This document shows positions 7,029-47,709 of a DNA stretch of 64,000 bases, piece by piece; position 1 is the stretch's first letter; every line of letters starts with the position of its first letter. A model generated the notes under the pieces. That model ran no database searches. It was not told where the DNA came from and saw nothing but the letters and a program-made list of their open reading frames with translations. Both the position numbers and the translations under genes were made by a program. The DNA lies in the IMG/VR virus record IMGVR_UViG_3300027747_004524, positions 1 to 64,000 of that record; one strand, written 5' to 3'. The stretch is from a virus.

Positions 7029-8404
7029 ATAGTCCTGTATTGGTGATGTCCCTCTACGATATAGGGAGGGATGGATGGAGTTCTTTTAGTTTGTCTTATG
7101 ACACTTATCTCCATTGGATGAGAAACACACTTTCTTTGAATTGCAAGATCGTCATCTACACAGAAGAAAAGTTCATAGAAGAAATTGAGGGATATAGAAA
7201 AGAGTTTGATCCTTCTTTTGAAAATACAGTTTTAATTAAAGAGCCCCTCGAACAGCTTTATTATTACAAGCACTATTATGATAAATTTTCTGACTTGATG
7301 AACTCAGAAGGCTTTAGAAACAAGACCCACTCTGACGTTCCTGAGATGATTCGTCCTCTCTACAACATTATTATGTTTAACAAAGTAGAGTTTTTGAAAG
7401 ATGTTAAGGATAAAAGATATTTTGACAATGACTTGCTAATGTGGGTGGACGCTGGTGGTTTAAGAGATAATATAGGTAAATACAAGGGTGAGATTTGGCC
7501 ATCCTTGGACAAGGTTAATCAGTTAGACAACTCAAAAGTAACTTTTTTTAGCCACTCAAAAAATATAATTGTCAACAACAAAGAGTCGCACGCTCTGTCC
7601 CAAGTCAGGTTCATTCAAGGAACTGCTTTTATGGCTCCCTCGAACCTAATAGACAACCTCGCCCAGGAGTTCAAAACAACAGTAGATGAATGCTTAGAAA
7701 ATGGATACATTGGAAGCGACGAAAAGATATTTGATATAACCTATTGTAAAGATCCTTCTAAGTACAATTTAATTAAATGTGACTGGAGAACATACTTTAA
7801 CATTCTAAAGCAAAATTCTCCTGATTTGTATGACAAGAAAGGCAATCAATCTAATAACGTTTTTATAGACTGCGGTTCTTATGAATGTTCTTCTTTACGA
7901 AAGAAAGTAGATGAGCTGGACATAGACTCCAGTTGGGACGTTCATGTATTTGAGCCAAATCCTATAGTGGATACGGAGAAATTTTCTAGTGCTTTTTCCT
8001 CCTGTAGGGTTAAGGTGCACAAAAAAGCTGTTTGGATTAGAGACGGTCGAACCATATTCAATCAATACGGCACAGACGGCAAAAATCAAGGTTCCTTGTT
8101 GGAGGAGACCGACGCTGGACGTTGGTATGGGAATTACTTTGGTAGTGTTATTGTGGAATCAATTGATATTTTGTCATTTATAAAGTCCTTTGATCCAAAT
8201 AAGGAAATCTATTTGTTCATGGATATAGAACATTCTGAATATAAGGTTCTGGAGCGTATGGTTAAGTTGGGTTGGCCTAATAACATAAAAAAACTCTGGG
8301 TAGAGTGGCATGACTCAAGGAATTCTGAGAATAGTAGAATTATAGAATTTGTAGAAAATGCCCTAAAAGAAACAAAGACAGAGTTTCACAGTACAAAAAT
8401 ATAA
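7013..8404 (+). CDS. HtrL/WlaTC-like glycosyltransferase fused to FkbM methyltransferase
   Basis: The N-terminal ~270 residues resemble the HtrL_YibB/WlaTC family: VPEMIRPLYN and LMWVDAGG are its typical blocks. The C-terminal ~190 residues are an FkbM-type SAM methyltransferase: VFIDCGSYE (motif I), HVFEPNP (motif II) and LFMDIEHSEYKVLE, the family's D-x-E-G-x-E-like segment. The fusion suggests that one polypeptide adds and then methylates a sugar. SD AAAGGAG lies 10 nt before the start. It sits between two other sugar-transfer genes. Confidence 0.78.
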   Translation: MGMAINSPVLVMSLYDIGRDGWSSFSLSYDTYLHWMRNTLSLNCKIVIYTEEKFIEEIEGYRKEFDPSFENTVLIKEPLEQLYYYKHYYDKFSDLMNSEGFRNKTHSDVPEMIRPLYNIIMFNKVEFLKDVKDKRYFDNDLLMWVDAGGLRDNIGKYKGEIWPSLDKVNQLDNSKVTFFSHSKNIIVNNKESHALSQVRFIQGTAFMAPSNLIDNLAQEFKTTVDECLENGYIGSDEKIFDITYCKDPSKYNLIKCDWRTYFNILKQNSPDLYDKKGNQSNNVFIDCGSYECSSLRKKVDELDIDSSWDVHVFEPNPIVDTEKFSSAFSSCRVKVHKKAVWIRDGRTIFNQYGTDGKNQGSLLEETDAGRWYGNYFGSVIVESIDILSFIKSFDPNKEIYLFMDIEHSEYKVLERMVKLGWPNNIKKLWVEWHDSRNSENSRIIEFVENALKETKTEFHSTKI

Positions 8405-8449
8405 TGTTGTTACTTAATTAGCTTGTACCCACACACAGGCTATTTTAAT

Positions 8450-9736
8450 ATGCAATCTTTGACTTCATTTATTAAAAAAAGTTTATCTAAGGACACTATA
8501 TTTGTCCAAATTGCCGCATATAGAGACCCACAACTTGTGCCTACTCTAAAGGATATGCTCCAACAGGCCAAAAACCCCAACGCCCTTTCTGTTGGGATAT
8601 CATGGCAGCATAGTAAAGAAGATGCGTGGGACAACTTATCTGAGTTTGAGAATGATGCAAGATTTAAAATTGTTGATATAGATCATAACGAGTCTAAGGG
8701 TGTGTGTTGGGCAAGAAATCTTGTTCAACAGCAATACGGTTCTGAAGCATACACTCTTCAAATAGACTCTCATATGAGGTTTGTTAAGGACTGGGATGAG
8801 ATTCTTATCAACATGGTTAAGGAACTACAAGCAAAGGGGCACAAGAAGCCTCTATTGACCGGATACGTTTCTTCTTTTGACCCAGATAATGACCCCAAAG
8901 GCAGGGTTCAACAACCTTGGCGTATGGTTTTTGACAGATTCACCCCAGAGGGGGTTGTTTTCTTTCTTCCAGAAGGAATACCTCAACACGAATCTTTAAC
9001 TGAGCCGATTGCAGCTAGGTTTTATTCGGCTCATTTCTGTTTTACTTTAGGTGCTTTTTGTAAAGAAGTTCAGCACAACCCCGACTACTACTTTCATGGC
9101 GAAGAAATTTCTATAGCTGCTAGAGCATATACCCATGGTTATGATCTTTTCCACCCTCACAAAATCGTTTGTTGGCATGAATATACTAGAAAAGGAAGAA
9201 CTAAACATTGGGATGACGATAAGTCTTGGTGGAAAAAGAACCAAGCTTGTCATCTAATAAACAGGAAGTTATTTGGAATGGATGGTGAGGCCCAAGAAGG
9301 GCATGATGGTCCTTATGGTTTTGGCAAGGAAAGAACCTTACGCGACTACGAAAAATACGCAGGTATTCTATTTTCAAAAAGAGGTGTTCAAAGATACACT
9401 TTAGATAAAAAGTACCCACCAAATCCTCCTTCGCAATCTGAAGAGGAATGGCTGGATAGTTTTTCTTTTGTTTTTAAGCATTGTATCGACGTTCAGTATT
9501 CTCAAGTTCCTGAAGATGACTACGATTTTTGGGTTGTTGTTTTTAAAGACGAAAATGGAACAGAGATATTCAGGAAGGATGCTGATATTAATGAGATTAA
9601 TGTAATGAAAAGGGACCCCGATAAATATTGCAAGATTTGGCGACAGTTTGATACTGTTGTTAGGCCTAAGTCATGGGTTGTATGGCCGCACAGCAAATCT
9701 AAAGGATGGTGCAATCAGATTAACGGCTCTATTTAA
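8450..9736 (+). CDS. GT60-like polypeptide GlcNAc-transferase
   Basis: 428 residues resembling the Skp1-type GlcNAc-transferase domain. IFVQIAAYRDPQL opens the domain, ARNL with LQIDSHMRF gives the D-x-H metal site, and FHGEEISIAARAY is the conserved acidic helix. In eukaryotes this family puts GlcNAc on hydroxyproline. Its stop overlaps the following HNH gene (TAATG). I use the ATG at 8450; a TTG at 8423 is possible but lacks support. A 2OG-Fe(II) oxygenase at 54.4 kb could supply a hydroxylated acceptor (inference). Confidence 0.78.
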   Translation: MQSLTSFIKKSLSKDTIFVQIAAYRDPQLVPTLKDMLQQAKNPNALSVGISWQHSKEDAWDNLSEFENDARFKIVDIDHNESKGVCWARNLVQQQYGSEAYTLQIDSHMRFVKDWDEILINMVKELQAKGHKKPLLTGYVSSFDPDNDPKGRVQQPWRMVFDRFTPEGVVFFLPEGIPQHESLTEPIAARFYSAHFCFTLGAFCKEVQHNPDYYFHGEEISIAARAYTHGYDLFHPHKIVCWHEYTRKGRTKHWDDDKSWWKKNQACHLINRKLFGMDGEAQEGHDGPYGFGKERTLRDYEKYAGILFSKRGVQRYTLDKKYPPNPPSQSEEEWLDSFSFVFKHCIDVQYSQVPEDDYDFWVVVFKDENGTEIFRKDADINEINVMKRDPDKYCKIWRQFDTVVRPKSWVVWPHSKSKGWCNQINGSI

Positions 9737-10011
9737 TGAAAAAGCATAAGCTTATAAATAAAAAAATAAAAAAGCTTATAGATAAAAAGTGCAAGTTCTG
9801 TGATTGTTCTACTTATGAGCTTTTAGACGTGCATCGTATAATAGAGGGCAATAAAGGCGGTAAATACACAGACCACAACACTGTCACTGTTTGCTCGTTG
9901 TGCCACAGAAAAATTCATGCTGGCATTATAAAGGTTGATAGAAAGTTTTTTTCCACCGCTGGCTGGGTTTTACATTATTTTGATGAAAACGGTGTTGAAA
10001 AGTACGACTAG
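9736..10011 (+). CDS. HNH endonuclease (91 aa)
   Basis: A compact HNH nuclease. C-x2-C (CKFC) is followed by DVHRI, a central Asn (DHNTVTVC), and C-x2-C-H-x3-H (CSLCHRKIH). Such small proteins nick or cut DNA as homing or packaging-associated nucleases. It directly follows the GT60-like gene. Its TAG stop shares the palindrome CTAG with the convergent gene on the minus strand. Confidence 0.82.
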   Translation: MKKHKLINKKIKKLIDKKCKFCDCSTYELLDVHRIIEGNKGGKYTDHNTVTVCSLCHRKIHAGIIKVDRKFFSTAGWVLHYFDENGVEKYD

Positions 10012-12072: not shown

Positions 12073-12654
12073 ATGATTTCTTATTTGGGTGAAGGATTGA
12101 ACATAACTATATCCTGTGACTATTTGCCTGGTCACAATTGGATGTCTTATTTATGTTGGTATTCGATTAACCAAAATTTACCTGATGCCAAGGTAAACAT
12201 TGTTTGTAAAAGGAACAACGTTTCTGGCACTATGTTTTTATGGACTAAAAAGATTGGAATACAATTTAAAATGTACAACGGTTCATCCTGTGAGGAAACT
12301 ATAGAGCTTAGACCAACTGTGATTGTTCCTCCATATTGTATGTGTGTTAGAGATTTTGAAGAATCTGGGTTTGATACAGGCACTATAAAAGAAGGTGATT
12401 TGCTCTATCTGAATGATACGGATTTAGTTTCAAAAGCCTCTTCCGATGATCCATCTTCTTTTTGTTCATACAAAAGAGGTTGGGGCCATTTTATCACGGC
12501 CGATTGGATACATAAGGAAGAATGTCCTTTGTATTTTTTGTTTGTGAAAAAGTTTTCTAAACAAGGTATGTCTTTAAACGAAAGAAAAATTGAAAGCTTG
12601 TGGAATGCTAGTCTAAAGTTGTTCCAAACGATTTCAGGAGGAGTTTTACAATGA
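12073..12654 (+). CDS. Unknown protein (193 aa)
   Basis: Not recognised. The opening (ISCDYLPGHNWMSYLCWYSI...LPDAKVNIVCKR) has the strand-helix-strand look of a nucleotide-sugar transferase N-terminus, but no D-x-D is clear. Several Cys and Trp residues. The start codon has no SD and stands right after CTATTATTTT. It overlaps the next gene by 4 bp. Confidence 0.55.
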   Translation: MISYLGEGLNITISCDYLPGHNWMSYLCWYSINQNLPDAKVNIVCKRNNVSGTMFLWTKKIGIQFKMYNGSSCEETIELRPTVIVPPYCMCVRDFEESGFDTGTIKEGDLLYLNDTDLVSKASSDDPSSFCSYKRGWGHFITADWIHKEECPLYFLFVKKFSKQGMSLNERKIESLWNASLKLFQTISGGVLQ

Positions 12655-12965
12655 GAAGGTTTGATTTTGATGACGAAGATCCAGATAGAGAGGAAGTAGA
12701 AAGGTTTCTCAACTCCGACTCTCAAGAGTATTTAATTACACCTGAGGAGTATAAAGGAATATTGGAAGAAGAAATGGTTCTTTACGAGGCCAAATTTAGA
12801 GAGACATCACAGAAACTCAAGTATAAATTGCTACTCAATGCCATAGATCTTTCAAAAGGTTCCTTCTTGTGGAAATTTTATTCTTTAAATACTAGATTAA
12901 ATCATATAGAAAAGGTTTACAAAAAACTAAATCTTTTGTTGGAGTTAGAACAAGAAGAAAAATAG
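12651..12965 (+). CDS. Unknown acidic/helical protein (104 aa)
   Basis: Not recognised. The N-terminal 40 residues are very acidic (FDFDDEDPDREEVE) and the rest is predicted helical. It starts with AGGAGG SD inside the previous gene's end and is followed by the FmdB-like gene, so these are co-translated. Confidence 0.58.
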   Translation: MRRFDFDDEDPDREEVERFLNSDSQEYLITPEEYKGILEEEMVLYEAKFRETSQKLKYKLLLNAIDLSKGSFLWKFYSLNTRLNHIEKVYKKLNLLLELEQEEK

Positions 12966-12972
12966 GTGATTT

Positions 12973-13308
12973 ATTCCAATCTATGACTTTCAGTGCCTTA
13001 GTTGCAATATTATTTTTGATGAATTTACGAGCTACGATGAAACAGGAGGGTATCCCTCTGTCATTTGCCCAAAATGCGGCTCAGATAAAAAAGAAAAATT
13101 AGCTTCCGCTTGCAACTTCAATTTTTCCAACCCTGTTGGCACAGACAGGTGGAATAGTGAGAATTCAGGGCATGACTACAGGTTTAAGCATAACTTGCCA
13201 TCTGTAATCGAGCAGCGTAAAAAAGCAGAGATCGCTTCAAAATCGCCCAATGCCCCCTATAATGAAATTAATGATTTAAACAAAAACGAATCCTGGGACG
13301 GAAATTAA
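12973..13308 (+). CDS. FmdB-type zinc-ribbon protein with ATT start
   Basis: No ATG, GTG or TTG opens this 111-codon frame. Homology fixes the start: FmdB-type proteins begin M-P-I-Y-(D/E)-(Y/F)-x-C, and here ATT is followed by codons for PIYDFQC. AGGTGA sits about 4 nt upstream. The zinc ribbon is CLSC...CPKCG. The C-terminal half is polar (Asn/Lys-rich). The frame is fully open between the TAG of the previous gene and TAA at 13306. A sequencing error or a frameshifted ATG is the alternative, but a second ATT-start gene follows at 15692. Confidence 0.72.
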   Translation: MPIYDFQCLSCNIIFDEFTSYDETGGYPSVICPKCGSDKKEKLASACNFNFSNPVGTDRWNSENSGHDYRFKHNLPSVIEQRKKAEIASKSPNAPYNEINDLNKNESWDGN

Positions 13309-13325
13309 ATTTTCGATATTGGTTC

Positions 13326-13353
13326 TTGATCTAGATCTTTTTATTCCTATAAT
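13326..13353 (+). promoter_or_regulatory. Sigma70-type promoter for prkA
   Basis: TTGATC (13326-13331), a 16-bp spacer, then TATAAT (13348-13353). The prkA ATG with its GGAGG SD lies about 20 nt downstream. This would let the PrkA operon be transcribed early by host RNA polymerase. Confidence 0.65.
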
Positions 13354-13374
13354 TAGTTGGTACCGGAGGACAAT

Positions 13375-15456
13375 ATGACTGACACGCTAAAAGAAATCAT
13401 CAACAGTTTCAACAAAGAACAGTTTCAAACATTAAACACTGAAATGAGTTTCAGTGAATATTTGGACTTGGTCAAGCAAAAGCCTTCTCTGCTTAGAAAC
13501 TCATGGCAGAATATTTATGAAATGATAATGGAGAAGGGCAGCAAGACTGTCGAAGAATATAGAAAGACCTATGTTCACTATAACTTTTTTGACGACTGTG
13601 ATCTACCAATTGTCGGCTTGACTCCTATGAAGGATGCTCTAGTAAAGTTTATCAAGGGAGCCGCTGGTGGGTACGGCACAGAGCGAAGAATCCTTTTGCT
13701 TCACGGCCCAGTGGGAAGCTCTAAGTCAACAATATGCAGACTAATAAAGAGAGGTCTTGAAAGGTTCTCTAAGACCGATAACGGTGCTTGGTATTCCTTT
13801 AAATGGGTAAATCTACCCACAGGTGCAGATGGTATTTATAATGATACAACCTGCGAATGCCCCATGCACGAGCAGCCTCTCAAGCTATTACCACTGGAAG
13901 TGAGACTTCCATTTGTAAAGAAAATTAATGAAATATATGAAGAGTCCCTATCAGATGATAAAAGGTCTGATACTTACACTCTCAAGTGCAATGACGAGCT
14001 TGACCCATTGTGCAAGAAGTTCATGAATGCACTACTTAAGAAGTATGATGGAGATTTAGAAAAAGTTTTAGAAAATCACATCAGAGTTGTAAGGAAGGTT
14101 TACAGCGAATCAGACCGTTGCGGAATAGCAACCTTCCAACCAAAGGACGAGAAGAATCAGGATTCGACTGAGCTAACTGGAGATATAAACTTCCGTCAGA
14201 TTGGTAACTTTGGTTCGGATTCTGATCCAAGAGCATTTTCTTTTGATGGTGAATTTTGTGCTGGGAATAGAGGCCTGATTGAATTTATCGAGGTTTTGAA
14301 GCTCGACACAGCGTTCTTATATGATCTTCTTGGTGCAAGCCAAGAACAATCAATTAAGCCAAAGAAGTTCTCTCAGGTATCAATCGATGAGGCTATTATC
14401 GCTCATACGAACGATCCAGAGTTTCAAAAGCTAAAGAGCAATCAGTATATGGAAGCTTTTAGGGACAGAACCACAAAGATAGACGTTCCATATACTTTAC
14501 GTTGGTCAGAAGAACTAAAGATTCTTGAAAAAGATTATGGTTCTGAAAAGGTCAAACAACATATAGCTCCACACACTTTGGAAATCGCTGCTCTCTTCTC
14601 TGTTCTCACTAGACTTCATGACGATAAAGACGGAAAGATCACACTAGTAGAAAAAGCAGAATTGTATGATGGAAGACTACTGCCTGGTTGGACAGAAGAC
14701 TCTGTAAAAGAAATGAGAGATAAGTATCCTGAAGAGGGTATGTCTGGCGGTGTGTCTGTCAGATACCTACAGGACAAAATATCTAATTGCTTGGCTAACA
14801 ATCATGAATATGTCAATATGTTCATGGTTCTTAACGAGTTGAAAGAGGGCCTAGACAATTGCTCCCTTTTAACAAACAAGGAGCAAGTAGGTAGATATAT
14901 TTCTTGTGTAGATCTAGCTCTCAAGAAGCTAACAGAAATACTTAAAGCTGAGGTGCAAAAGGCACTGGTCGGAGACGAAGATGCAATTATTAGACTTTGT
15001 ACTAATTATATCGACAATGTCATGGCTTATATTAATAAGTCTAAGATCAAGGATCCGATCACGGGTCAAGACCGCAAGCCGGATGAAAGGCTTATGAGGC
15101 AGATAGAAGAAAAGATTCAGATACCAGAAACTGGTGCTGAAGACTTTAGACGCCAGATTGCTGCTTTTATCGGTGATCTAGCTCATAAGAACAAGCAGTT
15201 TAGATGGGATTCAAATCCTAAGCTTAAGAAGGCTCTTGAGGCCAAACTTTTCGAGGATGTAAAGGATACCATCAAGTTGTCCGCACTAAATGTTAGCGGT
15301 GCCACAGTTGTAGACAAAGACATCCAAGAAAAGATCGACGCAATAAAAACAAGACTCATAAAGCAGTATGGCTATAACGAGCGTTCTGCTACAGACGTTT
15401 TGGACTTTGTTGGCGGTATATTTGCTAGGGGGGACTTAGCCGAGTCGGAGGACTGA
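13375..15456 (+). CDS. prkA: PrkA-family serine protein kinase / AAA+ protein
   Basis: 693 residues, close to bacterial PrkA/YeaG (about 640). It has an AAA+ N-terminal part with the PrkA-type Walker A GPVGSSKST near residue 115 and a C-terminal kinase-like domain. In bacteria PrkA phosphorylates proteins in stress, stationary phase or sporulation and is encoded with YeaH and SpoVR. The same order is kept here. ATG 13375 has a GGAGG SD 6 nt upstream; a TTG at 13357 is not needed. The stop is one base before the next ATG. Confidence 0.9.
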   Translation: MTDTLKEIINSFNKEQFQTLNTEMSFSEYLDLVKQKPSLLRNSWQNIYEMIMEKGSKTVEEYRKTYVHYNFFDDCDLPIVGLTPMKDALVKFIKGAAGGYGTERRILLLHGPVGSSKSTICRLIKRGLERFSKTDNGAWYSFKWVNLPTGADGIYNDTTCECPMHEQPLKLLPLEVRLPFVKKINEIYEESLSDDKRSDTYTLKCNDELDPLCKKFMNALLKKYDGDLEKVLENHIRVVRKVYSESDRCGIATFQPKDEKNQDSTELTGDINFRQIGNFGSDSDPRAFSFDGEFCAGNRGLIEFIEVLKLDTAFLYDLLGASQEQSIKPKKFSQVSIDEAIIAHTNDPEFQKLKSNQYMEAFRDRTTKIDVPYTLRWSEELKILEKDYGSEKVKQHIAPHTLEIAALFSVLTRLHDDKDGKITLVEKAELYDGRLLPGWTEDSVKEMRDKYPEEGMSGGVSVRYLQDKISNCLANNHEYVNMFMVLNELKEGLDNCSLLTNKEQVGRYISCVDLALKKLTEILKAEVQKALVGDEDAIIRLCTNYIDNVMAYINKSKIKDPITGQDRKPDERLMRQIEEKIQIPETGAEDFRRQIAAFIGDLAHKNKQFRWDSNPKLKKALEAKLFEDVKDTIKLSALNVSGATVVDKDIQEKIDAIKTRLIKQYGYNERSATDVLDFVGGIFARGDLAESED

Positions 15457-15457
15457 G

Positions 15458-15676
15458 ATGAACAATCATTGGCTAAGTTCTGTTAAAAAGAAAAAGCTCC
15501 TCAGGGCAATTGACGATGTTGGGATGGAGGTTTGGAGTTCAGATGGAACACTTGAGGATCTACTCAAGAGTTTGAATCGTGAACAAAGAAGCTTTCTCTT
15601 ATCAATGCAATTAGCTGATTTCTCTTGCGAAATAAACGATGAAACATTTCGTATAGAGCTAACCTTTCCCACCTAG
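15458..15676 (+). CDS. Small protein inside the PrkA operon (72 aa)
   Basis: Not recognised. It begins MNNHWLSSVKKKKLLRAIDD and is mixed charge. It fits exactly between prkA (1-bp gap) and yeaH (SD begins right after its stop), so it is translated with them. Confidence 0.6.
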   Translation: MNNHWLSSVKKKKLLRAIDDVGMEVWSSDGTLEDLLKSLNREQRSFLLSMQLADFSCEINDETFRIELTFPT

Positions 15677-15691
15677 TTAAGGAGGTGTACC

Positions 15692-16912
15692 ATTCCTCGT
15701 CGTATAGAAGAAGACCATAAAGACTTTAGAGATGTTGTATCCGGACGTATTAGAAAGGCTCTTAAAAAATTCATTAAGAGCGGCCAAATAGTACGTAACC
15801 GTGGTAAGAATGGCAAAGTCTCCATAACTATTCCTAAAATAGATATACCTCACATTGTCTTCGGAGACAGCGGCGAGGGCGTAGGAAGAGGTGCTGGAAA
15901 AGACGGAGACGTTATTGGCAAAGACCCTAAGCCGGGAAAAGGAAATAGTGCTGGGCAAGGGGATGCCGAAGGTATAACCATAAACCTTGATTTAGAGGAT
16001 GTCCTTAAGTTCATGCAGGACGAACTTAAGTTGCCCAACTTAAAGCAGAAGCCCAATGAAACGTATGATGAGATAAAGGTAAAGTATAACAATATATCCT
16101 TAGTTGGACCAGAGTCACTCAGGCACAACAGACGAACTCTTATGCAGACCCTCAAGAGGCAGGCTGCAGAGGGGACTTTGAACAACCTTTCTCATGTTCC
16201 GGGCTTAAAAGACCCTATAAGAATATTAAAACCAATCAACGAAGACAAAAGATACAGACAATATAACGAAATAAAAATTCCATCGAGTAACGCACTGATA
16301 GTGTTTGCCAGAGACGGTTCTGGAAGTATGGATGCAACTAAGTGCGACATAGTATCTGATATGTGTTGGTGGATCGATACATGGATTAGAAGATTCTATA
16401 CCAGAGTAGACAGGCTTTATGTCTGGCATGATTCTGCTGCTATGGAAGTAGACGAAGAGAAGTTTTATAAGTATCGCTTTGGTGGTGGCACCACCTGTAG
16501 CAGCGCTTTAAAGTTTATTTCAAAGCAATTTGAAAACCGCTATCCACCGAACAAATGGAACATTTATGTGTTTTATTTTACTGATGGTGAGAATTGGGAT
16601 GATGACAACTCTTTGTTTGTATCTACCCTTGCACAAGAGTTTACGCCAAATGTTGTCAACTTCACAGGCATTACCCAAATACTATCCACTATGCAGGGCA
16701 ATAGTGTAAAAAGCTTTGTTGATGATGCCATAAGAAATGGCACTTTGGACAGGGAATATGTAAGAACCGTTTCTATAGGCGAAGGTGGTACTCACTGGTC
16801 CTCTGGGCTTAGTGAAGAAGATCGTAATAAGCAAATTATTACCGCCATAAAGAAACTTCTTGGAAACGTTGAAGTCCCCGATGAGGAGTCCGCAAGCTTA
16901 AGCGAAGAATAA
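15692..16912 (+). CDS. yeaH: YeaH/YhbH (DUF444) VWA protein with ATT start
   Basis: 406 residues. The first internal ATG is at 16013, but homology continues far upstream: IRKALKKFI, VSITIPKIDIPHIVFG and GVGRGAG are the conserved N-terminal blocks of this family. The only plausible start is ATT at 15692, 6 nt after a perfect AAGGAGG and followed by codons PRRIEED. The C-terminal von Willebrand A domain has the MIDAS motif DGSGS, then GGGTT and FTDGEN. It is the partner of PrkA and SpoVR in bacterial operons. AUU is the same rare start seen at 12973. Confidence 0.85.
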   Translation: MPRRIEEDHKDFRDVVSGRIRKALKKFIKSGQIVRNRGKNGKVSITIPKIDIPHIVFGDSGEGVGRGAGKDGDVIGKDPKPGKGNSAGQGDAEGITINLDLEDVLKFMQDELKLPNLKQKPNETYDEIKVKYNNISLVGPESLRHNRRTLMQTLKRQAAEGTLNNLSHVPGLKDPIRILKPINEDKRYRQYNEIKIPSSNALIVFARDGSGSMDATKCDIVSDMCWWIDTWIRRFYTRVDRLYVWHDSAAMEVDEEKFYKYRFGGGTTCSSALKFISKQFENRYPPNKWNIYVFYFTDGENWDDDNSLFVSTLAQEFTPNVVNFTGITQILSTMQGNSVKSFVDDAIRNGTLDREYVRTVSIGEGGTHWSSGLSEEDRNKQIITAIKKLLGNVEVPDEESASLSEE

Positions 16913-23855: not shown

Positions 23856-25262
23856 ATGAAAAACTGCGAAATTGTTGGCTTTGAACATTTGCATCTCCAT
23901 ACGGATTTTTCATTACTCGATGGCTTCGGCATGGTAGAGGAATTTGCCCAAAGAGCAACTCAAATAAATCAGAAATTTCTTACCGTGAGTGATCACGGTA
24001 TGCTGGGAGCGGTCCCTAGACAAATTCGTGCTTGCGAAAAAATAAATGAAAAAAAGGGAAAAGACACCCTTTCCTATATATTCGCAGCAGAACTCTATGT
24101 GAACCCGCTCCAGCCAGAGTCTAGCTGTTTGGAGGATATGCAGAAGTTCACTGCAGATTTAAACGAAGAAGAAAAAAAGGACATCAAGGCTAGTGCTCAC
24201 CTTTTAGCAATAGCTTACAGCGACGTTGGTTATAAAAACCTTGTTCGCTTAACCAGCTGGGGATGGACTAAAGGCTTTTATAGAAAGCCTAGAGTCAATT
24301 ACGATCAGCTTTTAAAGCACAAAGAAGGTCTGTTCTTTACTAGCTGTTGTTATAACAGTGAAGTAGGCAGGGCTTTTGACAGACACGGTGAAGACGCCGC
24401 TAATGCTGTTATAGAGCGTTATATTGAAATGTTTGGTAGGAGTCATTATTTCTTAGAGATAATGCTCTTAGACTTTAAGAAACAAAAACCCTATGACGCT
24501 TTTATAATTAAGGCCCATGAAAAGTATAAGCTTCCTTTGATTTTAACCAACGACTGTCATTACTGCAATCAAGAAGACAGCAAGTTCCAGAGGCTTATGT
24601 TGATGGTTCAAACAAATAGGACCGTTCAAGACATTCAGCGAGCTATGGCTGAAGACAATATGCAAGATTTCTTCGAGCTTCAGGATGCTAACCTTTGGAT
24701 GAAGAGCGAAGAAGAGCTAAATAAAAAGTGGCAAGAAGAATATTCCGACACGATTCCATACGAACTCTTTCAACAAGCAAAAAAGAACACCGTTACCATA
24801 TGCAACAAAGCAAAAGGTGTTCAATTAGACCGTAGCCTTAAGTTGCCTGTGCTTCCTGATGCTGATGATATACTAAAAGAAGAGATAATGAAGGGTTTTG
24901 CTGAAAAGAACCTTCCTAGAACCAAAGAATACCTAGGCAGGATTAAAGAAGAATACTCCTTAATAACTAGAAAGGGTTTTTCTAGCTACTTCCTTATACA
25001 AAAGAAAATGACCGACGAAGCCAGAAGAGTTTGTAGGAGTCTTTTGGGCTGGGGAGATGGAAGTCAGGCTGTAGGGCCTGCTAGAGGCTCTGCAGCGGGT
25101 GCTTTAACTTGTTACTGCTTGGGCATAACTACGGTTGACCCTGTGAAAGAAGGTCTACTGTTTAGTAGATTTATGAGTGAGGCTAGAGGCGGTAGGTCTA
25201 TTTGCTTAGAGTTTAAGAACTTGGACCCATTTCCCCCAAAAGAGGTTTTTAACGATCAATAA
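23856..25262 (+). CDS. dnaE: DNA polymerase III alpha, N-terminal gene (PHP and start of palm)
   Basis: 468 residues matching the N-terminal part of DnaE. The PHP domain opens with HLHTDFSLLDG and TVSDHG. The thumb/palm part ends with RGSAAGALTCYCLGIT (near residue 410) and LLFSRFMSEARG, after which normal DnaE continues with PDxDxDF. Here the frame instead ends after about 20 unrelated residues. The catalytic palm residues are in a separate gene at 32166. GGGAG SD. The two products presumably assemble into one polymerase. Confidence 0.88.
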   Translation: MKNCEIVGFEHLHLHTDFSLLDGFGMVEEFAQRATQINQKFLTVSDHGMLGAVPRQIRACEKINEKKGKDTLSYIFAAELYVNPLQPESSCLEDMQKFTADLNEEEKKDIKASAHLLAIAYSDVGYKNLVRLTSWGWTKGFYRKPRVNYDQLLKHKEGLFFTSCCYNSEVGRAFDRHGEDAANAVIERYIEMFGRSHYFLEIMLLDFKKQKPYDAFIIKAHEKYKLPLILTNDCHYCNQEDSKFQRLMLMVQTNRTVQDIQRAMAEDNMQDFFELQDANLWMKSEEELNKKWQEEYSDTIPYELFQQAKKNTVTICNKAKGVQLDRSLKLPVLPDADDILKEEIMKGFAEKNLPRTKEYLGRIKEEYSLITRKGFSSYFLIQKKMTDEARRVCRSLLGWGDGSQAVGPARGSAAGALTCYCLGITTVDPVKEGLLFSRFMSEARGGRSICLEFKNLDPFPPKEVFNDQ

Positions 25263-32165: not shown

Positions 32166-35100
32166 ATGTCAAAAGAAGATGAAGACCTTGAAGCATTGTG
32201 TGTTTCTTCTCTTAAAAACAAGAAGCTAGATAATGATCCTAATTTTTATAAAAGGCTTAGGTGGGAGCTTGAGGAGATCAAGGCAAAGAATAGGTCCAAC
32301 TATTTCTTAGATCTACACAAAAGAAAAGTTTTTTATCCAAGTAATGAGAATAACTTACTGACTTGTTGGCTTCTGGGTATCGTTTCTAGCGTTGATATCA
32401 ACAAAGAGCCTAAATGTGAGTATGGGGATTATCCCGATATCGACGTAGATTTTATTCCGGTTGTGAGAGAGTATTTAAAAAATACTTGGGCTCCTTCTAC
32501 TTTCGGTGAAGAGTACGTTTGCAACATAGGAAATTATACTACCTTCGGGATTAAGTCCGCTTTAATAGACATGGCTCGTGTTCATGGTGAAAGCCGTGAT
32601 GAAATTTTAGCCTTAACCAAGAACTTAGATGCCAAAGACGATGAAGGCAAGGCTATGACTTGGGACTCAGCCATGAAGCTGAATCCTGATCTTAAAAAGT
32701 ATTGTGACAGATATCCTGAGATAGCTGAGTCCGCGAAAAAACTTCTGAATAGAAATAGAGGAATGGGTGTTCATGCTGGAGGGTTGATAATATCTAACTC
32801 TCCACTGCCCGAACTAGTTCCACTTGTAAAAAGAAAAGATAACCCTCAAGCGTCTGCTTGGGTTGAGGGCTTGCACGGCCAAGACCTTCAGCCGGTCGGC
32901 CTTGTTAAATTTGATCTTCTAGTTATATCAAATCTGCTACAGATAGCTAAATGCTGCGAGTTAGTTAAGAACAGACATAACCTAAAGGGTATTTGTGCAT
33001 TAGAGGGACAGGCAGACTGGTCAGACGTTAAAGCCTGGCGAAACGACTCTGTTGCTTTAGAGATGGCAAACTCCGGTGATCTCAAAGGCATCTTTCAGTT
33101 TGATAGTGAAACTGTAAGAGGCATGTGCCAGAATGGTGGTGTGGACAGATTTGAAGATTTAGTTGCTTATACGAGTTTGAATCGTCCCGGTCCTCTTAAC
33201 ATGAAGATGCAGGAACGATACATCGAAAGAAAAAGGGGTCGGGAAGATTATTCACTACATTCTTTGATAGAACCCATATTAGGCGACACTTATGGGGTTA
33301 TGATTTATCAAGAACAAGTCATGAAAATCCTTAACGTGGTTGGAGAGATTCCTCTTAAGGATTGCGAGCTTGTTCGAAAAGCAATAAGCAAGAAGAAGAT
33401 AGATAGCTTCATAAAGTACAAAGAGATGTTTGTTCGTAACGGCCAAAAGAATTTAGGCGTTAACGAAAAAGAGGTTGAAGATCTTTGGCGAGCTATTGAG
33501 GCTTTTAGCGAATATGGTTTCAATAAATCTATGCACCAAGATACATATATATCTACGCCTAAAGGACTTAAGAAAATTTGTGATTTTCAAAAAGGGGACA
33601 TAGTTTATTGTATCGATGAATTAGGCAACACGGTAGAAACGGAAGTGGTCAATCTTCACTATCATGGGATCTTACAAGGTTATAAAGTAGAATTTGATGA
33701 TGGCTATAAAATAGTTTGCACTTTAGACCATAAGTTTCTCACACAAGAGGGACAGAAGCCTCTCCATGAAATTATATTGAATAAGACTTCTGTTCTTTGT
33801 GAAAAAGAATTTGGAGGAAATTATGCCGAAGAGAAGAGAAGATGGTTGGATGTCGAAGTGCAAAAAGAAGTTCCCCAGGCTAGAGATGTCTTGCTTCCAC
33901 AGCAGCACAGGAAGAATGACGTTAGAATGGTGGACCACCTTTCAGAACATGCTCCAATCTCCAATACCCGGGGTTTGGTGTCTAGGAAAATTGTACGAGT
34001 TGTGCCCGTGGGCGAACGACAAATGTACGATCTTGAAGTTTCCTGCCTAACACACAACTTTATTTTGCCAAATGGAGTAGTAACAAGTAATAGCCATGCC
34101 GTTGCTTATAGCTATGTCTCTGCATATCTTCTTTATCTAAAGTCTCATTATCCCCACGAGTTTTATACCAGCATACTTAGTTGTGAAACACTAAGCGACA
34201 AAATAAAAGAATACAAAATGGAGGCTAAACTCCATGATGTAAACGTGCTTCCTATAGAAGTTAATCGATCAAAGGTCAATTTTGATCTTCAAGGTGAAGA
34301 CATATACTTTGGACTATCCAACGTTAAAGGAGTAGGAGAAGCTCCCGCGAAGAGAATAGTAGACCTACAACCGTTCAGTGGGTTTGAAGATTTTCTAGAA
34401 AGATTTGGGACTGATGCCAACGTTCTCAAACCTTTAATTGGCCTTAGGTGTTTTAATGAAAGCGACCCGGTCACTTTGTGGAAGTTCTCAGAGTGTTATA
34501 AACTTTTTTCAAAAAGAAACGAAGACAAAAAGAAAAGGTACATTGCTGCTTTAGAAAAGTACGAAGAAGAGTTTAAGGAGCTTTTTCCTGAGGAGAGCAT
34601 AAGGCTTAGTGATATAAAAGGAGACTCTCCTTTTGAAGATCCTTATTGGATCAAGTACAATGCAGACGGCGACCAATTTATAGAGAAAAGAGTTGAGTGT
34701 GATAAAGATGATGAAGGAGCTTATGCAAAAGTCGTAAACACCCCAGTAACTTTGGATTGCGGTTTGACCATAGAGAAAGAGACTGTTAAGTACTATAAAA
34801 AGGTTAAAGTCAGAAGAAACTGGAATCGGTTAGTTGCTTTTAGATCGCTTTGGAACAAGAGAAACAAGTCCATTGAAAGGTATAAGCTCATATCAAAGGA
34901 CAGTCCAACGCTTGCAACTTTTGATCCATCAAAACACGATATTGATGGAAACCTTGAAGAAGAACTTAGCAACTTAGACTTTTGTGAAAATAAGTACTAT
35001 GGATTTAGCTGGATACATCCATTGGAGAACAGCCCAGACTATAGGGGCAATCTCACCTTTAACAATTTAAAAGCATCAGAAGACGTTGCTGTGGGGGCAG

Positions 35101-35399
35101 TAGAGATTAAGGTACTTAAGGCTACGAAAACAAAGAGTAAAAAAGGCACAGAATATTACCAAATTCAGGCCGAAGACGTCACAGGGCAATCGAACAAGAT
35201 AATAGTTTGGTTGGACGATTGGGAAAGATGGAGCGAGGAGCTTTCTCCAAACAATCTACTTAGAATAAGGCTTCAGCCGCCTTCTAATGGATTCGCTACT
35301 TTTACACTTGAATCGAACAGTAGCGGATTTAGATGGAAGGGCGTCAAAAAGTACCCTGACAAGAAGGACGATATTAGGATTGTTGTTCTTAGTAGTTAG
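32166..35399 (+). CDS. dnaE: DNA polymerase III alpha, C-terminal gene (palm to C-terminus) with intein
   Basis: 1077 residues encoded, about 889 after intein removal. The catalytic palm begins with YPDIDVDF near residue 90 (two metal-binding Asp). Finger blocks VMIYQEQVM and FNK/SHAVAYS follow, and the C-terminal region carries OB-like sequence (GAVEIKVLK). The first ~85 residues are a worn copy of the segment that ends the other dnaE gene: LTCWLLGIVSSVDINKEP aligns with LTCYCLGITTVDPVKEG but has lost RGSAAG. The third palm Asp of DnaE appears as Glu (DCELVRKA); that alignment is uncertain. It would replicate phage DNA together with the 23856 product. Confidence 0.88.
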   Translation: MSKEDEDLEALCVSSLKNKKLDNDPNFYKRLRWELEEIKAKNRSNYFLDLHKRKVFYPSNENNLLTCWLLGIVSSVDINKEPKCEYGDYPDIDVDFIPVVREYLKNTWAPSTFGEEYVCNIGNYTTFGIKSALIDMARVHGESRDEILALTKNLDAKDDEGKAMTWDSAMKLNPDLKKYCDRYPEIAESAKKLLNRNRGMGVHAGGLIISNSPLPELVPLVKRKDNPQASAWVEGLHGQDLQPVGLVKFDLLVISNLLQIAKCCELVKNRHNLKGICALEGQADWSDVKAWRNDSVALEMANSGDLKGIFQFDSETVRGMCQNGGVDRFEDLVAYTSLNRPGPLNMKMQERYIERKRGREDYSLHSLIEPILGDTYGVMIYQEQVMKILNVVGEIPLKDCELVRKAISKKKIDSFIKYKEMFVRNGQKNLGVNEKEVEDLWRAIEAFSEYGFNKSMHQDTYISTPKGLKKICDFQKGDIVYCIDELGNTVETEVVNLHYHGILQGYKVEFDDGYKIVCTLDHKFLTQEGQKPLHEIILNKTSVLCEKEFGGNYAEEKRRWLDVEVQKEVPQARDVLLPQQHRKNDVRMVDHLSEHAPISNTRGLVSRKIVRVVPVGERQMYDLEVSCLTHNFILPNGVVTSNSHAVAYSYVSAYLLYLKSHYPHEFYTSILSCETLSDKIKEYKMEAKLHDVNVLPIEVNRSKVNFDLQGEDIYFGLSNVKGVGEAPAKRIVDLQPFSGFEDFLERFGTDANVLKPLIGLRCFNESDPVTLWKFSECYKLFSKRNEDKKKRYIAALEKYEEEFKELFPEESIRLSDIKGDSPFEDPYWIKYNADGDQFIEKRVECDKDDEGAYAKVVNTPVTLDCGLTIEKETVKYYKKVKVRRNWNRLVAFRSLWNKRNKSIERYKLISKDSPTLATFDPSKHDIDGNLEEELSNLDFCENKYYGFSWIHPLENSPDYRGNLTFNNLKASEDVAVGAVEIKVLKATKTKSKKGTEYYQIQAEDVTGQSNKIIVWLDDWERWSEELSPNNLLRIRLQPPSNGFATFTLESNSSGFRWKGVKKYPDKKDDIRIVVLSS
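33528..34091 (+). other. Mini-intein in DnaE (residues 455-642)
   Basis: 188 codons interrupt the finger motif FNK/SHAVAYS. Block A starts with Ser1 (SMHQDTYISTPKG...GDIVYC), block B is TLDHKFLT, and block F is YDLEVSCLTHNFILPNG, ending T-S-N before Ser+1. No LAGLIDADG or HNH homing domain is present. The residue before the terminal Asn is Ser rather than His. The insertion point is a few residues beyond the one I remember for cyanobacterial split DnaE inteins. Confidence 0.88.
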
Positions 35400-35441
35400 A
35401 TTTATTGGAAACTAACTTATTTATAGGCAAAAGGAAAAATT

Positions 35442-35939
35442 ATGAACCAAGAACTTGTTATAGATGAGAACAACTTTACACAGTACTTTAGAGATTGCAG
35501 AAATTGCCGTCCTGAAAAGGGAGACATTATGGCAAGATTCACTGCTATCGCTGAGTTCGTAGACGGCAGGATGAAGAAAGATATAATAGATCTTCTTTAC
35601 AACAAAGATAACAAGGTAAATGCAGCCATCCAGGTTATGAGGAAATTAGGCTGTGCCACAGAAAAAGATGCTATACGTATTTGTAAGGACATATGTCAAG
35701 ACCTGTTTTCTGGTATGAAACCTGAAGAAGTTGAGAGTAAAGTGTATAAATACCAAATGGAATCGTTCTATTATACGAAAAAGGAATTCGTACCATTAGA
35801 CGATCCCCATTGGTCCTTAATCGGCATAGCGAACTTAGATGAGTTCCTAGACAAGTCAGGCAACAAACTTAGAATGGAGTCGAAGTTAAATTCAAATCCT
35901 ACAAAGGAAGGGGATGAGCAACAACAGGAAGTTCAATGA
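35442..35939 (+). CDS. Unknown protein (165 aa)
   Basis: Not recognised. Mostly helical, with an N-terminal Cys pair (CRNC) and a Glu/Gln-rich tail. SD AAAGG. It overlaps the next gene by 26 bp. It follows dnaE and could be a replication accessory protein. Confidence 0.58.
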   Translation: MNQELVIDENNFTQYFRDCRNCRPEKGDIMARFTAIAEFVDGRMKKDIIDLLYNKDNKVNAAIQVMRKLGCATEKDAIRICKDICQDLFSGMKPEEVESKVYKYQMESFYYTKKEFVPLDDPHWSLIGIANLDEFLDKSGNKLRMESKLNSNPTKEGDEQQQEVQ

Positions 35940-44930: not shown

Positions 44931-45608
44931 ATGAGCTGTTCAAACAACAACAATAGTGCCTGTTCTGACCAATGTGGCTGTCCTTCCGGGATTTGCCCAG
45001 ACTTCTTAATCAGAAGATATGACACCAAACCCGACTACAGGGTTCTTATGGAGGACTGCAATGGGCCTATGGACCTTACGGACTTAATTTTAGAGTCTAC
45101 CATGTGGGCAAAGTCCAAACTGAAAACGAACATAACAAGCACAGATACTGCCCTCTCTTTAGCCGACAACATAGGATTTAACCAAATAATAGTTGGCGAC
45201 ATGCTAATAATAGAAAGAACAAGAGGCTCAGAAAAAGTTCTCGTTACTTCCTTTGACGAGAACAATAAATTAGTTTATGTTGATAGGGGGCAAGACGGCA
45301 CCACAGCACAGGATTGGAGCAGAGGAAATCCAATTAAAATTGTTAAGTTTATGAATAGACCTTCAAAGGTAGAAATGGTTTACGAAGACATTTTAGAAAT
45401 AGATGGAACAACAACACAGAATGTTCTACAGGAAAGTTATTTTATTCATGAGTGGTCGCTCCCTGAGACAGACGCTCCTGGCTGCTATTACCTTGAGTTT
45501 AAACTCATGACACAGGTTTCTGCTCCTGATCAGTGGATCAGGCGTTTTCCTGCTGACAAAGAAGGCTTCTTGATCAAGATAACGGATACTTTTACCAGCG
45601 AGTCTTGA
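44931..45608 (+). CDS. Putative virion structural protein (225 aa)
   Basis: A Cys-rich N-terminus (CGCPSGIC) precedes a block DYRVLMEDCNGPMDLTDLILESTMW of the kind found in baseplate or tail proteins, then VYVDRGQDGTTAQDWSRG, typical of phage structural proteins. ATG 44931 is chosen because the late-type octamer covers the earlier ATG at 44916. Ends near the start of the ThDP enzyme gene. Confidence 0.55.
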   Translation: MSCSNNNNSACSDQCGCPSGICPDFLIRRYDTKPDYRVLMEDCNGPMDLTDLILESTMWAKSKLKTNITSTDTALSLADNIGFNQIIVGDMLIIERTRGSEKVLVTSFDENNKLVYVDRGQDGTTAQDWSRGNPIKIVKFMNRPSKVEMVYEDILEIDGTTTQNVLQESYFIHEWSLPETDAPGCYYLEFKLMTQVSAPDQWIRRFPADKEGFLIKITDTFTSES

Positions 45609-45610
45609 AT

Positions 45611-47158
45611 ATGCCATTGGTATCTGAATTTTTATGCGAAAGATTGGGAAACGCAGGCGTTAAGCACATTTTTGGTGTACAAGGCCCTTACATAAACAAT
45701 TTTTTAGATGTAATCTCTCAAAGTGACAGAATCAAGTTCATCAGTAACACTGATGAAAGCCACGCGGGCTTTGCGGCTAACGCGTACGCTAGATTTAATG
45801 GAATAGGCTGCGTTTGTGCTACTTACAACGTTGGTGCGTTAAAGCTGTGCAATTCGGTTGCCGGTGCTTACGCCGAAAGGTCGCCTGTTGTTATCATAGG
45901 CGGTTCCCCAGGTATGAAGGACAGGAATAAAGACTTTCTATCTAATCATTTGGTTGAAAGCTTTAGTTCTCAAAAAGAGATGTTCGACCACATTACCGCA
46001 CATAGTGTCGTTTTAGATAATGCAACAACAGCTGGCTGGAAGATTGATAACGCTCTCAATATTTTAAAAGAAACAAAGCAACCTGTTTATATCGAAATTC
46101 CAAGGGATGTTGCTTCACAACCTATAAAGTATGACGTTTATACGCAAGGCACCCCTAATAACGATAAAAGCGATGGAGCCAGTTTAAAAGAAGCTATAGA
46201 AGATGTCTCTAGCTACCTAAAATCTTCTAAAAATCCCGTTATAATTATGGGAGTTCAAATCACAAGGTTTAATCTTGAGGACTCTTTAATCAAGTTTGCA
46301 GAGAAGCATAATATCCCTATAGTTACAACCTTTTTGAGTAAGTCTTCTATTTGTGAAACCCATCCATTATTTTCTGGTGTTTATTTTGGCGAACAAACCC
46401 GTAATTTAGAGGTTAAGAATCGCGTAGAGTCATCAGACTGCTTGCTGATATTTGGAGAAATGCTAACTGATACTGGCTTTGGGTTTGTTACGCCCAAGTT
46501 TGACAACAGCAATACTATTTTTTGCTCTATAGAAAACTTAAGAGTTAAAAACCACATTTATTGTGGAATTAGGTTCATTGACTTTTGCAAAGACTTTTTT
46601 AGAATTGATTTAGGAAAAAAAGAATTTGTTTCTTCGACTAAGAGCAATAGAACAAAGTTTGTTCCCATAGAAGGACAAGGGATAAGTTTAAAAAGATTTT
46701 TTGAAAAATTGAATAGTATATTAGACGAAAACTTTGTTGTGTTAGCTGATATCGGTGAGTACATGCTTGATGCCGCTGAGCTTGTTGTGCCACATCATCG
46801 TTTTATAAGCTCTGCCTTTTACTGCAGCACTGGCTTGGCTTTGCCCGGTGCAATGAGCGTCCAACTGCTTAATGCGGGCATTCGTCCCTTAGTGGTTGTT
46901 AGCGAAGACTCTTTTCAAACTTCTTCTATGGAAATTAGCACCCTTGTACAAAATAATTTAAATCCAATAATTTTGGTTATCAATCAGAAAAAAAATTCAA
47001 TTAAAAGTTGGAATTACGAAAAAATATGTGATACAATTGGAGGAGTTGGTTATCTCGTAAACGATGAGACAGAGCTTGATAATGCAATTAACGCCTGTCT
47101 TAAGAAAAAGTCCTTATCCGTTATCAATGTTGTTCTCGATGTTTCATCTCAAGTCTGA
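45611..47158 (+). CDS. ThDP-dependent decarboxylase-like enzyme
   Basis: 515 residues in the pyruvate/indolepyruvate decarboxylase-acetolactate synthase layout. The catalytic Glu region is TDESHAGFAANAYAR (~48-62), with a central domain and a C-terminal ThDP region. The usual ThDP motif GDG-x(26)-NN reads SEDSFQTSSMEIST...NQ, so metal and diphosphate ligands are altered. It may use ThDP unusually or be inactive. Two genes downstream is an aldehyde dehydrogenase, suggesting a 2-oxoacid-to-acid route. Confidence 0.72.
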   Translation: MPLVSEFLCERLGNAGVKHIFGVQGPYINNFLDVISQSDRIKFISNTDESHAGFAANAYARFNGIGCVCATYNVGALKLCNSVAGAYAERSPVVIIGGSPGMKDRNKDFLSNHLVESFSSQKEMFDHITAHSVVLDNATTAGWKIDNALNILKETKQPVYIEIPRDVASQPIKYDVYTQGTPNNDKSDGASLKEAIEDVSSYLKSSKNPVIIMGVQITRFNLEDSLIKFAEKHNIPIVTTFLSKSSICETHPLFSGVYFGEQTRNLEVKNRVESSDCLLIFGEMLTDTGFGFVTPKFDNSNTIFCSIENLRVKNHIYCGIRFIDFCKDFFRIDLGKKEFVSSTKSNRTKFVPIEGQGISLKRFFEKLNSILDENFVVLADIGEYMLDAAELVVPHHRFISSAFYCSTGLALPGAMSVQLLNAGIRPLVVVSEDSFQTSSMEISTLVQNNLNPIILVINQKKNSIKSWNYEKICDTIGGVGYLVNDETELDNAINACLKKKSLSVINVVLDVSSQV

Positions 47159-47172
47159 GGTATTTATTAAAA

Positions 47173-47709
47173 ATGTCTTTTGAAGAAGACCTTCCTGTCA
47201 ACAGACAGATAAGAAGTCGCCAGGTTCGTGTAATTTTAGAAGATAGGCAGCTAGGCGTTTTTCCTTTTGAAAAAGCCTTAAAGATGGCGCAGGACGCCAA
47301 TCTAGACTTGGTAGAAGTTTCTCCTCCTATCAATGGCACCTCAGTCTGTAGAATAACAGATTATGGCAAGTTTAGGTACGAGAAACAATTAAAAAAGAAA
47401 GAGCAGTTGAAAAAACAACGAACCTCTCAGGTGAATCTTAAGGAACTTAGACTTAGACCTGTTATAGGAAAGCATGATATGGAAGTCAAAATATCACAGG
47501 CAAGGAAGTTTTTAGAGGACAACTCTAAAGTACAGTTCAATATTGTTTTCAAGGGACAACGTGAGATGTCTCACAAAGAACAGGGTTTTTCTGTTATTAA
47601 ACAAATTATAGAGAGCCTATCAGATGCTGGTTTGGTCGAAAGAAATCCTAGGCTTGATGGAAACTGTATAACTTGTGTTATTTCTCCTAAAGTTCAGATT
47701 AAGAAATGA
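47173..47709 (+). CDS. infC: Translation initiation factor IF-3
   Basis: 178 residues, full length. The N-terminal domain shows VNRQIRSRQVRVI and LDLVEVSPPINGTSVCRITDYGKFRYE, then a Lys-rich linker, and the C-terminal domain shows LRPVIGKHDMEVKISQARKF and FKGQREMSHKEQG. IF3 keeps 30S subunits free and checks the start codon. Starts with ATG (host infC often uses AUU), with GAGG 12 nt upstream. Overlaps the next gene by 4 bp. A phage IF3 can retune start choice during infection. Confidence 0.95.
   Translation: MSFEEDLPVNRQIRSRQVRVILEDRQLGVFPFEKALKMAQDANLDLVEVSPPINGTSVCRITDYGKFRYEKQLKKKEQLKKQRTSQVNLKELRLRPVIGKHDMEVKISQARKFLEDNSKVQFNIVFKGQREMSHKEQGFSVIKQIIESLSDAGLVERNPRLDGNCITCVISPKVQIKK

Follow-up and report, generated by a model that had tools for sequence, protein, structure and literature searches.

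AUU start codons at the fmdB and yeaH genes of jumbo phages that encode translation initiation factor IF3

How are two phage genes translated that show no ATG, GTG or TTG where their homologues begin? This question is raised by a 64-kb stretch of viral DNA, here called the window (positions 1 to 64,000 of the 122,854-base phage record IMGVR_UViG_3300027747_004524 of IMG/VR), in which an fmdB-like zinc-ribbon gene and a yeaH gene both open with ATT. AUU start codons are regarded as rare curiosities, with two genes in E. coli (pcnB and infC). A first-pass annotation of the window had proposed that both phage genes are nevertheless started at AUU, and that a translation initiation factor 3 (IF3) encoded by the phage could shut them down as its level rises during infection.

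Two genes without a canonical start codon

The fmdB-like gene (12973–13308, on the plus strand, as are the other genes of its cluster and the IF3 gene; 111 codons) was delimited by alignment with its orthologues. Its start codon ATT occupies positions 12973–12975 and opens the reading IPIYDFQCLSC. Upstream the frame is closed by an in-frame TGA (12967–12969), which is part of the Shine–Dalgarno (SD) sequence AGGTGA (12964–12969), and the first in-frame ATG, GTG or TTG past the ATT is a TTG at 13195, within the conserved protein. The MPxYxF start and the two CxxC pairs of the zinc ribbon are present, the cysteines C7, C10, C31, and C34 being invariant in the alignment; the score against Pfam Zn_ribbon_8 is 34.2 bits, marginally under the cut-off of 34.4.

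The yeaH gene (15692–16912; 406 codons) starts with ATT at 15692–15694, reads IPRRIEEDHKDF and is preceded by the extended SD sequence AAGGAGGTG (15679–15687). An in-frame TAG at 15674 closes this frame upstream, whereas the first canonical codon past the ATT is the ATG at 16013, 107 codons into the gene. YeaH matches Pfam DUF444 with 207 bits (cut-off 27) and has PrkA and SpoVR as neighbours. The open reading frame (ORF) listing of the window lacks fmdB altogether and begins yeaH at 16013; gene finders that are restricted to ATG, GTG, and TTG miss such AUU genes or misplace their starts.

In both genes the GGTG of the SD sequence (12965–12968 and 15684–15687) lies exactly 4 nt before the ATT. 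The ATG, GTG or TTG of the orthologues falls at exactly the column of this ATT, or an ATG is found one codon before it (proteins beginning ‘MC-P’). With no canonical codon at this column in the window, with both frames closed upstream and with strong, well-placed SD sequences, the comparison confirms at the level of sequence that both genes genuinely use AUU as their start codon, as the first-pass annotation had claimed.

Recurrence among related phages

Orthologous loci were gathered by alignment-based scans of a viral collection, which gave 57 non-identical loci for fmdB and 60 for yeaH. At fmdB the start codon is ATG in 37 loci, ATT in nine, TTG in five, and GTG in five, one locus being misaligned. 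At yeaH we found ATG in 34 loci and one codon earlier in another eight, ATT in six, ATC in two, TTG in five, and GTG in five. AUA, CUG, and ACG starts were absent from these fmdB and yeaH loci, AUU and AUC being the only non-canonical codons.

The conserved ATT that had been suggested as a check was found: four further members of the window's clade (L003, L004, L005, and L007; 65–84% amino acid identity to the window protein) retain the codon of fmdB, making five with the window itself, and so does the more distant L016. The ATT of yeaH recurs in L235/L236 and in other lineages. An assembly or read error as the source of the ATT was ruled out because the codon is kept in independent metagenome records. 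In the yeaH tree the AUU/AUC state needs at least six changes, all of them forced by well-supported (starred) branches; in the tree of the shorter FmdB protein it needs three. From these trees AUU/AUC starts are read as having evolved several times at the same two genes in related jumbo phages.

Gene specificity of the AUU starts

Our survey covered 1,878 ORFs with homology support in 17 related contigs. It looked, under strict criteria, for similarity at the coding level ahead of the first canonical start, and its counts were set against 421 gene instances where an AUU-class start would have been visible. AUU starts were met only at fmdB (six contigs), at yeaH (two contigs), and at one other gene. 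AUU-class starts thus account for 8 of 25 start-informative fmdB/yeaH instances versus 1 of 405 instances of other genes (p = 3e-10 by Fisher's test, with no correction for kinship).

The two genes belong to a cluster that also contains genes serving as controls. It begins with an ORF of 104 amino acids without a Pfam match (12651–12965), the TAG stop of which overlaps the fmdB SD sequence, and continues with fmdB, prkA (13375–15456; YeaG-type serine protein kinase, Pfam AAA_PrkA and PrkA), an ATG-started ORF of 72 amino acids without a Pfam match (15458–15676), yeaH, and spoVR/ycgB (16914–18512; Pfam SpoVR). Both controls start with ATG in the window. Their orthologues are without AUU starts, prkA showing 53 ATG, two GTG, and one TTG and spoVR 61 ATG and one TTG. 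The ATG of spoVR sits 1 nt past the yeaH stop, and spoVR is probably translationally coupled to yeaH.

The single other gene of the survey codes for a CAP-like lipoprotein (G016, 35317–35829; L128) and is a third likely AUU gene; its AGGAG-TCGA-ATT aligns with a TTG in G019, and G016 encodes IF3 as well. An interrupted PHP gene (see below) was rejected as a further AUU gene, being a false lead of the survey.

Position of the Shine–Dalgarno sequence

At each of the 17 non-identical AUU/AUC sites a GGTG precedes the start by exactly 4 nt. This motif is found near that place in 8 of 71 AUG orthologues (p = 2e-12 against the AUU/AUC sites) and, as GGTG-N4, at 44 of 1311 AUG starts (3.4%) across the 17 related contigs. 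The orthologues with TTG or GTG starts show the layout in 12 of 20 cases. In addition, the base at −1 is a pyrimidine (T or C) in 17 of 17 AUU/AUC sites (p = 3e-6 against the AUG orthologues); a U at this position may add pairing with A37 of the initiator tRNA.

A generally stronger SD sequence was considered and rejected, as the AUU sites of fmdB are, judged by mean duplex energy, no stronger than its AUG sites. Since the fmdB classes are not separated by SD energy, it is the register that seems to be the requirement. The spacing in GGUG-N4 would be close to optimal for pairing with the 16S tail. The layout also provides a testable sequence rule for spotting AUU/AUC starts.

The phage IF3

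The IF3 gene of the window (47173–47709) proved to be as first annotated, full length and started with ATG; its product shows both Pfam domains, IF3_N and IF3_C, and falls into the PHROG category translation initiation factor. The gene lies on the same strand as the fmdB–yeaH block and is syntenic in the relatives, nearly always 17–46 kb downstream of the cluster. Of the 26 records that extend 40 kb or more past the cluster, 25 contain IF3; the records without it are mostly truncated. Because IF3 is near-universal in this group, its coexistence with AUU starts is to be expected anyway, and we abandoned co-occurrence as support once this had become apparent. The phage IF3 copies that were read have canonical start codons and hence are without the AUU-class autoregulatory start of cellular infC.

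We take residues Y75, R99, R112, R116, R131, R147, and R168 of E. coli IF3 to be those that bear on binding to the 30S subunit and on codon discrimination. Compared with this list the window protein keeps Y75 and R99, has lysine for R116 and R131, and carries R112S, R147Q, and R168N. The phage IF3s have lost R112 and mostly R168. Most of them (G000, G006, G007, G009, G010, G013, G016, G017, and G034) have a one-residue insertion in a loop of the C-domain, reading FKG-x-RE versus F(R/K)G-RE, together with N for R168. No phage tRNA reading AUU as initiator was found in the window genome, which encodes only tRNA-Pro, tRNA-Asn, and tRNA-Thr.

The IF3 gene has metabolic neighbours, a thiamine-pyrophosphate enzyme directly upstream (45605–47158) and, two genes downstream, an aldehyde dehydrogenase (48702–50180), which is unusual cargo for a phage.

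Possible role of the AUU codons

We consider it likely that the AUU codons attenuate translation at the start codon in combination with an exactly placed SD sequence, host and phage IF3 being the likely inputs. Owing to poor pairing with the initiator tRNA, AUU would act as an attenuator and hold the synthesis of FmdB and YeaH to a fraction of what an AUG would allow, while the neighbours prkA and spoVR retain AUG. The exact placement (GGUG-N4-AUU/AUC with a pyrimidine at −1) would anchor the 30S subunit at the start, and the site would work only in this way. AUU-class codons are discriminated against by IF3, so that the output of the two genes should drop with more free IF3, whether this comes from the host or from the AUG-started phage gene. 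The AUU starts of fmdB and yeaH are thus probably IF3-sensitive. The sequences show the AUU starts with their recurrence, gene specificity, and constant geometry, together with the near-universal IF3, whereas low expression, IF3 sensitivity, and any timing are what we infer.

Published work makes repression of AUU genes by IF3 plausible. In S. aureus, AUU or AUA starts with an extended SD sequence yield about 10% of the AUG output (PMC13009471), and the GTC start of Streptomyces sigR is repressed in trans by IF3 (PMC5472188). Raising the level of IF3 inhibits initiation at non-canonical codons, reduces re-initiation, and blocks M13 (PMC2268962). Each of the known systems resembles the phage genes in part. 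The AUU start of E. coli pcnB, a translationally limited gene, is laid out like the phage sites (GAGGTG-TACT-ATT with T at −1), but pcnB is a single bacterial gene, and recurrent evolution is indicated here for the phage genes and not for pcnB. Cellular infC shares the AUU-class start discriminated by IF3; its upstream sequence GGAGGAATAAGGT-ATT is, however, GGAGG-N8-ATT rather than GGTG-N4, and in the phages the AUU is found on other genes whereas the IF3 gene itself starts with AUG. Like the phage genes, sigR is a regulatory gene other than that of IF3, with an IF3-sensitive start and a canonically started partner gene adjoining; it differs in being bacterial and in using GTC, and the effect of IF3 was tested experimentally in sigR but is predicted from sequence in the phage. 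A non-canonical start with an extended SD sequence is also found in S. aureus cvfC1 (AUU) and ccpN (AUA), which are chromosomal bacterial genes with measured expression; cvfC1 encodes a small possible zinc-finger protein, and phage FmdB is a zinc ribbon. IF3 genes in huge or jumbo phages have already been reported (PMC7162821 and PMC7824862), and the available portions of these two reports make no mention of AUU target genes.

Some points weigh against start-codon attenuation with IF3 input. Close relatives that carry IF3 have UUG, GUG or AUG in place of AUU, and IF3 sensitivity is therefore not conserved. SD pairing was judged with a canonical anti-SD sequence, from which that of the host may differ. 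The co-variation of SD sequence and start codon may reflect lineage-specific junctions instead of compensation, and the p-values for the layout and for gene specificity ignore kinship.

We considered several alternatives. Since a GTG is present at −7, within the GGTG, in 17 of 17 sites, translation could begin there and reach the gene by a +1 shift, or the genes could be fused with the upstream ORF. The GTG frame, however, always runs into a stop within 4–13 codons, and a slippery sequence is not apparent; in-frame stops just upstream close the fmdB and yeaH frames in the window, and most orthologues with ATG at the start column are without that GTG. The same GTG at −7 is found in E. coli pcnB, for which the AUU start is established (Binns and Masters 2002, as cited in PMC13009471 and PMC9410913). 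A frameshift fusion was dismissed on the upstream stops and the short GTG frames, and we regard translation without AUU initiation as extremely improbable. It is far easier to conceive that several weak starts (UUG, GUG, AUU) replace one another by drift at two genes whose products are needed in small amounts, a static tuning in which IF3 has no role. TTG and GTG indeed occur at both fmdB and yeaH and hardly at prkA and spoVR, and more than half of these orthologues share GGTG-N4. Yet AUU is strongly preferred among the non-canonical codons and is recurrent, and established biochemistry makes it IF3-sensitive, so that some effect of IF3 is hard to avoid; we rate static tuning as quite possible, though somewhat below even chances. 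Phage IF3 could also serve another purpose, such as less re-initiation or the exclusion of competing phages or host messages, with the AUU genes merely coexisting. In E. coli, overexpressed IF3 makes re-initiation about three times rarer and prevents M13 from propagating (PMC2268962), and IF3 is near-universal in the group while AUU is patchy; as this leaves the recurrence of AUU only at fmdB and yeaH unexplained, we are doubtful about it.

The timed switch of the first-pass annotation, in which rising phage IF3 turns off fmdB and yeaH at a set time of infection, and which would extend to the coupled spoVR, stood in its components only: the AUU starts, the good SD sequences, the AUG-started IF3, and the recurrence. 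The canonical starts of the phage IF3 genes would free them from the AUU/AUC/AUA autoregulation reported for cellular infC, all AUU lineages with enough downstream sequence have IF3 except the borderline G061 (38 kb), only AUU and AUC are used and never AUA, CUG or ACG, and sigR provides a precedent (PMC5472188). Nothing, however, ties the phage IF3 to the sites, and with IF3 near-universal the co-occurrence says nothing. The C-domain of the phage IF3s is without R112 and mostly without R168, and sister phages with IF3 use TTG, GTG or ATG at yeaH. These codons are not discriminated against by IF3. A dedicated switch thus seems unlikely to us, and a timed infection switch by phage IF3 is unproven. 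We give still less credence to a phage-run AUU regulon in which a structurally altered, AUG-started IF3 would set the output of two regulatory genes, fmdB and yeaH (plus coupled spoVR), by codon discrimination, with GGUG-N4 obligatory and the infection stage as the switch. Start-codon attenuation with IF3 as an input remains the reading we prefer, and the repeated evolution of AUU at two genes would offer a natural system for studying whether the fidelity of initiation (IF3) serves viruses as a control dial.

Further observations

The PHP-domain gene of DNA polymerase III is intact in the window (23856–25262), but 19 out of 65 non-identical phage loci carry an interrupted copy (L341, L342, L344–L347, L353, L355, L357, L367, L371, L372, L376–L378, L383, L392, L397, and L406). 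In these a TAG or TGA directly follows the HLHLH codons, the distance between the last His codon and the conserved (T/S)D codons is 5–8 nt, and downstream frames of all three kinds occur. A perfect 11-bp coding inverted repeat (hairpin) precedes the interruption in 19 of 19 loci, with compensatory variants, as compared with 7–10 pairs in the other 46 loci. In sequence the interruption resembles a site of programmed ribosome bypassing (compare T4 gene 60), for which CAY would be the take-off and mostly NAY the landing codon, or else a frameshift site. Further interruptions lie close to the motif, at most about 20 nt away (L356, L358, L370, L379, L384, L389, L398; L366, L368, L369; G004/L397), and consist of GC-hairpin inserts of about 40–46 nt or of CTT TAA CTT between SVL and DG, where a CTT-to-CTT hop would restore the PHP protein exactly.

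Two genes separated by 7 kb (23856–25262 and 32166–35399) together encode DNA polymerase III alpha; the split falls near position 98 of the DNA_pol3_alpha domain, and the second half contains an intein-like domain starting near GFNKS. The PHP gene of G002 (7380–9998; L334) seemingly has an intein (ending ...VHNC before ELYVNP), which the window copy is without. Finally, the product of 22051–23499 in the window has a Cas12f1-like TNB domain and is probably a transposon nuclease of the TnpB type.

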